Assembly (NCBI GenBank): GCA_020621905.1
Contig: JAHRYZ010000017.1
Coordinates: 1-33,385, forward strand
Source: Rhizobium sp.
GTDB lineage: Bacteria > Pseudomonadota > Alphaproteobacteria > Rhizobiales > Rhizobiaceae
Direction: 5' to 3'
DNA length: 33,385 nt
The notes under the pieces are model-generated. The model did not search any database, was not told where the DNA came from, and saw only the letters and a program-made list of their open reading frames with translations. The translations under genes and the position numbers were made by a program. Positions within the stretch are counted from its first letter, which is position 1, and each line of letters begins with the position of its first letter. Below, in pieces: positions 31,512-33,385 of this stretch.

Positions 31512-32459
31512 ATGGCGAAGATCACCAATATTGCGGTCCAGATGGACCATGTCTCCGGTATCGCGATCGCGGGGGATTCGACCTTCGCCATGAGCCTTGA
31601 GGCCCAGGCCCGCGGCTACAAGCTGTTCCACTATACGCCCGACCGGCTCTCCATGCGCGACGGCCGCATCATCGCCACCGTCGAGCCGATGGAACTGCGC
31701 GACAAAAAGGGCAACCACTTCACCCTGGGCGAACCGGAACGGGTCGATCTTTCCACCATGGACGTGGTGCTGCTGCGCCAGGATCCGCCCTTCGACATGG
31801 CCTATATCACCTCGACCCACCTGCTCGAGCGCATCCATCCGAAGACGCTGGTCGTCAACGATCCGGCCTGGGTGCGCAACTCACCGGAAAAGATCTTCGT
31901 CACCGAATTCGCCGATCTGATGCCGCCGACGCTGATCACGCGCGATGTGAGCGAGATTGCCCGCTTCCGCGAAGAGATGGGCGACATCATCCTGAAGCCG
32001 CTCTACGGCAATGGCGGCGCCGGGGTTTTCCACTCCACCCGCGACGACCGCAACTTCACCTCGCTGATCGAGATGTTCCACCAGATGTTCCGCGAACCCT
32101 TCATCGCCCAGGCCTATCTGCCGGCGGTGCGCAAGGGCGACAAGCGCATCATCCTGGTCGACGGCGAGGCGGTCGGCGCGATCAACCGCGTTCCGGCCGA
32201 AACCGACAGCCGTTCCAACATGCATGTCGGCGGGCGCGCCGAGGCCACCGAACTGACGGCGCGGGAGAAGGAAATCTGCGCCCGCATCGGTCCTGCACTG
32301 AAGGAGCGCGGCTTCATGCTGGTCGGCATCGACGTCATCGGCGACTACATGACAGAGATCAACGTGACCTCTCCGACCGGCATCCGGGAAGTCAAGAAGT
32401 TCGGCGGTGCAGATATTGCCGCGCTTCTGTGGGATGCGATCGAGAAGAAGCGGGCCTGA
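31512..32459 (+). CDS. gshB: Glutathione synthetase
   Basis: A 315-residue ATP-grasp enzyme that joins gamma-glutamylcysteine and glycine, the second step of glutathione synthesis. Family landmarks are [21 protein letters not shown] at the N-terminus, [36 protein letters not shown] (ATP-binding loop), [19 protein letters not shown] and the metal-binding [23 protein letters not shown]. The length is normal for the rhizobial enzyme. GAGGGG lies upstream of ATG 31512. Glutathione supplied here would serve the two GSTs in the window. Confidence 0.97.
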
Positions 32460-32542
32460 GAACGGCCCGTCTTCCGGTCTGATCACCCTTCGTTCCAACT
32501 ATACAACTCGACGCAACCCGATCGCGAGTATAGCGTGAATTT

Positions 32543-32557
32543 GTTCCGCTAATGTTC
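32543..32557 (+). promoter_or_regulatory. LexA binding site (SOS box) upstream of comM
   Basis: GTTCCGCTAATGTTC is an exact match to the alphaproteobacterial LexA motif GTTC-N7-GTTC, 91 bases before the comM start. comM is among the genes reported as LexA-controlled in this class. Seen directly as sequence; regulation is inferred. Confidence 0.75.
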
Positions 32558-32648
32558 TTGTTTTCGGGCGCGATCCGTGCCAGATTGCAATCCATGACCC
32601 GCGCAAGATGTAGTTGCGAGGGGCGATCTGGGTTCGTGGGGGCGGGCG

Positions 32649-33385
32649 ATGGTAGCGCGTGTCAGTACAGTCGCATTCCAGGGCATTGAGGGCGTTCCGG
32701 TCGACGTCCAGGTGATGGTCGCGCCGGGCAAGCTCGGCATGCAGATCGTCGGCCTGCCGGACAAGGCGGTGGCGGAGAGCCGCGAACGCGTGCAGGCGGC
32801 GCTTCATGCGTCCGGACTGGCGCTGCCGCCCAAGCGGGTGACCGTCAATCTGGCGCCAGCCGATCTTCCCAAGGAAGGCTCGCATTTCGACTTGCCCATT
32901 GCGCTCGGCCTGATGGCGGCCCTCGGCGCCATCCCTGGCGACGCGCTCTCCGATTATGTGGTGATCGGCGAACTCAATCTCGACGGCACGATCGCGGCGA
33001 TTGCCGGCGCGCTTCCGGCGGCGATCGGCGCCAATGCGCTCGGCAAAGGGCTGATCTGCCCGGCCGATTGCGGGGCCGAGGCGGCCTGGGCCGGCGCCGA
33101 CATCGACATCCTCGCGCCGCGCAGCCTGATCGCGCTCGCCAATCATTTCCGCGGCACCCAGGTGCTCACCCGTCCCGAGCCGGCGATCCGCGCCTTGCCC
33201 GCCAACCTGCCGGATCTTGCCGACATCAAGGGCCAAGAAAGCGCCAAGCGGGCGCTGGAGGTCGCGGCCGCCGGCGGGCACAATCTGCTGATGGTCGGGC
33301 CGCCGGGCTCGGGCAAGTCGATGCTGGCCGCGCGACTGCCGTCGATCCTGCCGCCGCTCTCGGCCGCCGAACTGCTCGAAGTGTC
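32649..33385 (+). CDS. comM: ComM/YifB family Mg-chelatase-like AAA+ ATPase, N-terminal part (cut by window edge)
   Basis: The gene runs off the right edge, so it is missing from the ORF track. About 245 residues are visible from [20 protein letters not shown]. The N-terminal Lon-protease-like/ChlI fold domain shows [46 protein letters not shown] and [12 protein letters not shown], then begins the AAA+ domain with [20 protein letters not shown] and Walker [21 protein letters not shown]. ComM is a hexameric helicase that extends branch migration during natural transformation and recombination. The LexA box just upstream suggests SOS induction. Confidence 0.95.

Follow-up and report, generated by a model that had tools for sequence, protein, structure and literature searches.

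A conserved LexA box at the comM promoter of Rhizobiaceae, with a putative companion element at a fixed distance

Introduction

Does the direct repeat that precedes comM in this Rhizobium genome act as a LexA operator that places a recombination helicase under the control of DNA damage, or is it a chance match or a part of the promoter itself? The arrangement GTTC-N7-GTTC is the LexA motif of Alphaproteobacteria, and comM was previously reported as SOS-regulated in Caulobacter (PMC3323433). The gene is counted among the targets of LexA in Caulobacter as well as in other Alphaproteobacteria (PMC3323433, PMC6473078), and ComM belongs to the core SOS set of Caulobacter and Sinorhizobium according to Erill et al. 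2004 as cited in PMC6473078. In Gram-negatives, its product is regarded as a branch-migration helicase dedicated to transformation; the helicase activity is known for homologues elsewhere (PMC11612176). SOS control of comM is already known in related bacteria, and the present locus is a well-supported further instance of it; a search of the literature on SOS transcriptomics in Sinorhizobium returned nothing on comM.

A LexA-type box between gshB and comM

The window, by which we mean the whole 33,385-nt stretch of DNA that was analysed, ends within comM, and the box lies in the 189-nt intergenic gap that separates this gene from gshB.

31512..32459, + strand: gshB, glutathione synthase (PRK05246, 455.8 bits, above the cut-off of 272)
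32543..32557, + strand: LexA box GTTCCGCTAATGTTC (alphaproteobacterial GTTC-N7-GTTC), an exact match, conserved at comM with spacer 7 only
32649..33385, + strand: comM (YifB family Mg chelatase-like AAA ATPase), N-terminal 245 codons (TIGR00368), running off the contig end

The comM product matches TIGR00368 over residues 8–245 (E=3.6e-67, 227 bits; the cut-off of 362 applies to the full protein, and the contig end truncates the gene). Orthologues within the family, which are mostly 70–93% identical, align from residue 1 with the ATG at 32649 taken as the start. In the nearest named relative, Ciceribacter selenitireducens, ComM is 100% identical over the 245 residues, the LexA box is identical and comM forms an intact frame of 510 aa. 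The remainder of a comM copy is found on another contig of the assembly (L090, G000:C382, positions 1–914). Compared with the intact C. selenitireducens gene, its reading frame is shifted by a single base near position 301, and the first 117 bases of that contig show several mismatches to the window end. Rather than a gene that is broken, this copy may reflect a misassembly or a second strain among the assembled sequences.

An earlier note on this DNA had pointed to an exact LexA box at a sensible distance from the comM start, and both observations hold: the box is the sole exact match in the window, begins 106 nt upstream of the ATG and follows the end of gshB by 83 nt. Dinucleotide shuffles of the window nevertheless gave a mean of 0.90 matches against the one observed, so that a single exact box in 33 kb is at chance level and the motif alone proves little. 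At the scale of the genome (4.41 Mb, both strands), GTTC-N7-GTTC occurs 133 times versus 67 for the reversed control pattern, and a stricter pattern, GTTCNNNNNWTGTTC, in which A/T and then T stand ahead of the second half-site, occurs 15 times versus once for its reversed control. From the genome-wide density, we estimate that any given 250-nt upstream stretch should hold about 0.004 sense-strand matches.

The box and its spacer are conserved across genera

We assembled ComM orthologues from the window genome and 60 other genomes of the family, one per genus, which gave 59 usable upstream regions with the window included. In 49 of them, an exact box is found no more than 250 nt from the comM start, versus 0–4 regions for each of the other spacers (3–6 and 8–12). 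Several family regions outside these 49 have GTTT as the first half-site, and nearly all of the 10 genomes that lack an exact comM box possess lexA. A second, named set, which overlaps the family set in its lineages and is not independent of it, gave exact boxes in 59 of 77 comM upstream regions and 0–5 for other spacers. Among the 80 named loci, exact boxes precede comM in Rhizobium, Neorhizobium, Ensifer, Agrobacterium, Mesorhizobium, Phyllobacterium and Bartonella, and further in Labrenzia, Chelatococcus, Nitrobacter, Bradyrhizobium, Rhodopseudomonas and Methylocystis; the loci retrieved from Methylobacterium, Microvirga and Rhodoblastus carry no exact comM box. Outside the order, the box was present in 5 of 68 regions (about one genome per family, with one region probably misoriented).

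All of these orthologue counts come from genomes with a common ancestry and cannot be treated as independent trials. The spacer controls protect against effects of composition but only in part against common descent, even though positions next to the box have diverged. The retention of the box at the same place and with the same spacer across genera leads us to reject a chance match, which, in spite of the shuffled expectation for the window, we consider extremely improbable.

lexA and boxes at other SOS genes of the same genome

The genome encodes LexA (TIGR00498, 181 bits; cut-off 110.95). The lexA promoter (L102, around 1440–1505) contains a reverse exact box, GAACACAAATGGAAC, and a forward near-match, GTTCCGTATTTGTTT, in opposite orientations, an arrangement that would be expected for autoregulation. 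Boxes with AT-rich spacers also accompany dinB, dnaE and two imuA-like genes and occur between uvrA and ssb, while recA has an imperfect site only. Separately, an AT-rich exact LexA-like box, GTTCTTTATATGTTC, lies near a gene matching the iron exporter MbfA (L027, G000:C79:5322–5336), and could possibly be a further SOS target or a chance occurrence.

Across the family, lexA scores above the cut-off in 57 of 60 genomes. Loss of lexA was considered as a test of box loss and proved uninformative: of the three genomes with no LexA match above the cut-off, one (G006) likewise lacks a comM match, and gaps in the assembly may account for the other two.

The box abuts the inferred −35 of comM

We aligned 107 comM upstream regions on the LexA box and read the conservation of each column. 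The box itself shows a T-rich lead-in, A and A/T at spacer positions 5 and 6, and T (90%) before the second GTTC. Conservation continues past its 3' edge: TTG directly follows the second GTTC in 97–98% of the regions and is succeeded by a T-rich stretch, and 17 nt past the −35 hexamer there is an extended −10 (T 76%, G 84%, C 65%, with the last T of its hexamer at 90%). These columns place the probable promoter elements as follows.

32558..32563, + strand: inferred −35 hexamer TTGTTT, with the conserved TTG, abutting the second GTTC
32578..32586, + strand: inferred extended −10, TGC then CAGATT, from column conservation

The transcription start of comM may accordingly be placed near 32593 in this alignment-based model. 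A generic promoter scan did not flag the −35 and −10 of comM, because the −10, CAGATT, departs from TATAAT. LexA bound to the box would be predicted to cover or abut comM's own −35, a position that corresponds to the usual geometry of LexA-repressed promoters (PMC3323433).

The same proximity raises an alternative, in which GTTCTTG belongs to the −35 region and the conserved stretch serves comM as a core or upstream promoter motif without binding LexA. The TTG is indeed conserved about as strongly as the box, and GTTCTTG is kept in two regions that lack the first GTTC (L082 and L087). A −35 element, however, does not require a further GTTC placed exactly 7 nt ahead of it. This half-site is nevertheless retained in 49 of the 59 family regions, and the immediately neighbouring spacers, 6 and 8, give 4 regions and 0. 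Moreover, the double motif is present without a following TTG at lexA, dinB, uvrA/ssb and the imuA-like genes of this genome. We therefore regard a pure promoter motif as quite unlikely. A genuine LexA operator that represses comM is the best reading of the sequence data and, in our judgement, very probably correct, because the box is conserved with spacer 7, sits on the promoter, coexists with lexA and shares its motif with standard SOS genes. Against it weigh the 10 family regions with no exact box, the rarity of the box outside the order and the imperfect site at recA. The four lines of evidence in its favour lend support to the third proposal of the earlier note, namely that the box ties comM to DNA damage; the promoter geometry, as well as the second upstream element described below, were absent from it.

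Proposed LexA control of comM

Under repression, a LexA dimer would occupy the box by the −35 of comM, within the gshB–comM intergenic region, and block RNA polymerase. DNA damage would then release comM through the RecA-stimulated self-cleavage of LexA, which is the established SOS mechanism, and the additional ComM, a hexameric branch-migration ATPase by homology, might extend recombination intermediates during repair or DNA uptake. The data support SOS control of comM throughout Rhizobiaceae and in much of Hyphomicrobiales, groups that are not generally regarded as naturally transformable. The conservation of an SOS box at comM would favour a role of ComM in repair as well, and in these groups the protein is more plausibly a repair helicase than a factor devoted to transformation only.

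The closest known counterpart is the comM operator of Caulobacter crescentus (Erill et al. 2004, via PMC3323433 and PMC6473078), which, as far as these citing texts relate, has the same motif, spacer and target gene in the same class of bacteria. The present species is not covered there, and the passages that cite the work do not describe the tight fit to the −35 or the companion element 51 bp upstream. LexA operators of the E. coli type (CTGT-N8-ACAG) likewise overlap the promoters of SOS genes or lie next to them; they are, however, palindromic, whereas the comM box is a direct repeat.

A second conserved element upstream of the box

The comM upstream regions contain a second conserved sequence, which was found during the analysis and not predicted.

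32491..32518, + strand: second element TGTTCY-N7-CAACY-N4-RCAACY, here CGTTCCAACTATACAACTCGACGCAACC, conserved, with its GTTC 51 bp upstream of the LexA-box GTTC

In the shorter form GTTC-N8-CAACY-N4-RCAAC, it spans 32492–32517 of the window. It is the only match in its own genome, and among 42 family genomes the exact pattern has 13 matches, 12 of which are upstream of comM. At a score of at least 10/12, it is present in 40 of 107 comM upstream regions versus 0–1 after shuffling. Its distance to the LexA box is exactly 51 bp in 29 of these 40 sites and within 1 bp of 51 in 35, whereas the gap that separates it from the gshB stop ranges from 1 to 179. The element was defined in part from sequences that were also counted, a caveat that weighs less on the fixed spacing, on the comparison with shuffled regions and on its scarcity elsewhere. 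From 31 aligned regions, the consensus is approximately TNTGTTCY-N5-TRCAACC-NGN-TRCAACC; a third, partial repeat follows roughly 10 bp further on, and the linker is less conserved. The element is also seen at L032, L036, L054, L058, L060, L067, L141 and L195, among others.

The fixed distance to the LexA box argues for a protein site that acts on the comM promoter. A putative factor bound to the TRCAACC direct repeats (32491–32518) could activate or tune this promoter, in which case LexA would be only half of the control and comM would not be a pure SOS gene in Rhizobiaceae. Such a factor extends the LexA explanation and does not contradict it. The lock to the box despite the variable position of gshB, the excess over shuffled sequences, the near-specificity for comM and the repeat period of about 10 bp, which would present the CAAC repeats on one helix face, all speak for it; on the other hand, the element is missing from about 60 of the 107 regions, and many of these retain the LexA box. 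With these observations pulling in both directions, we give the existence of a second factor an even chance. The comM promoter of Rhizobiaceae might, by an equally balanced judgement, be composite, combining a LexA operator with a dedicated site for a putative, nearly comM-specific regulator fixed 51 bp away, often accompanied by a third partial repeat of the TGCA type. If so, expression of the recombination helicase would need a second signal besides DNA damage, and the companion element offers a concrete lead to a second regulator of the comM promoter.

Several other readings of the element were rejected. A feature of the gshB 3' end is at odds with the variable distance to the gshB stop and the fixed distance to the box. 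DriD, the SOS-independent damage activator of Caulobacter, whose site ATACGAC-N7-GTCGTAT lies over the −35 (PMC12340889), was considered since its sites are likewise at a damage-response promoter; the TRCAACC repeats do not match this sequence, and the second element starts about 66 bp upstream of the −35 of comM. A CenR site (TGA-N8-TGA) was discarded for sequence mismatch. As for a wider regulon, one-mismatch matches elsewhere were not clearly above the reversed-pattern control in six genomes.

Finally, several relatives without the TRCAACC element (L063, L065, L070, L081 and L085) have a GATTC site (GANTC, CcrM-type) that precedes the LexA box of comM by between a few and about 20 nt.
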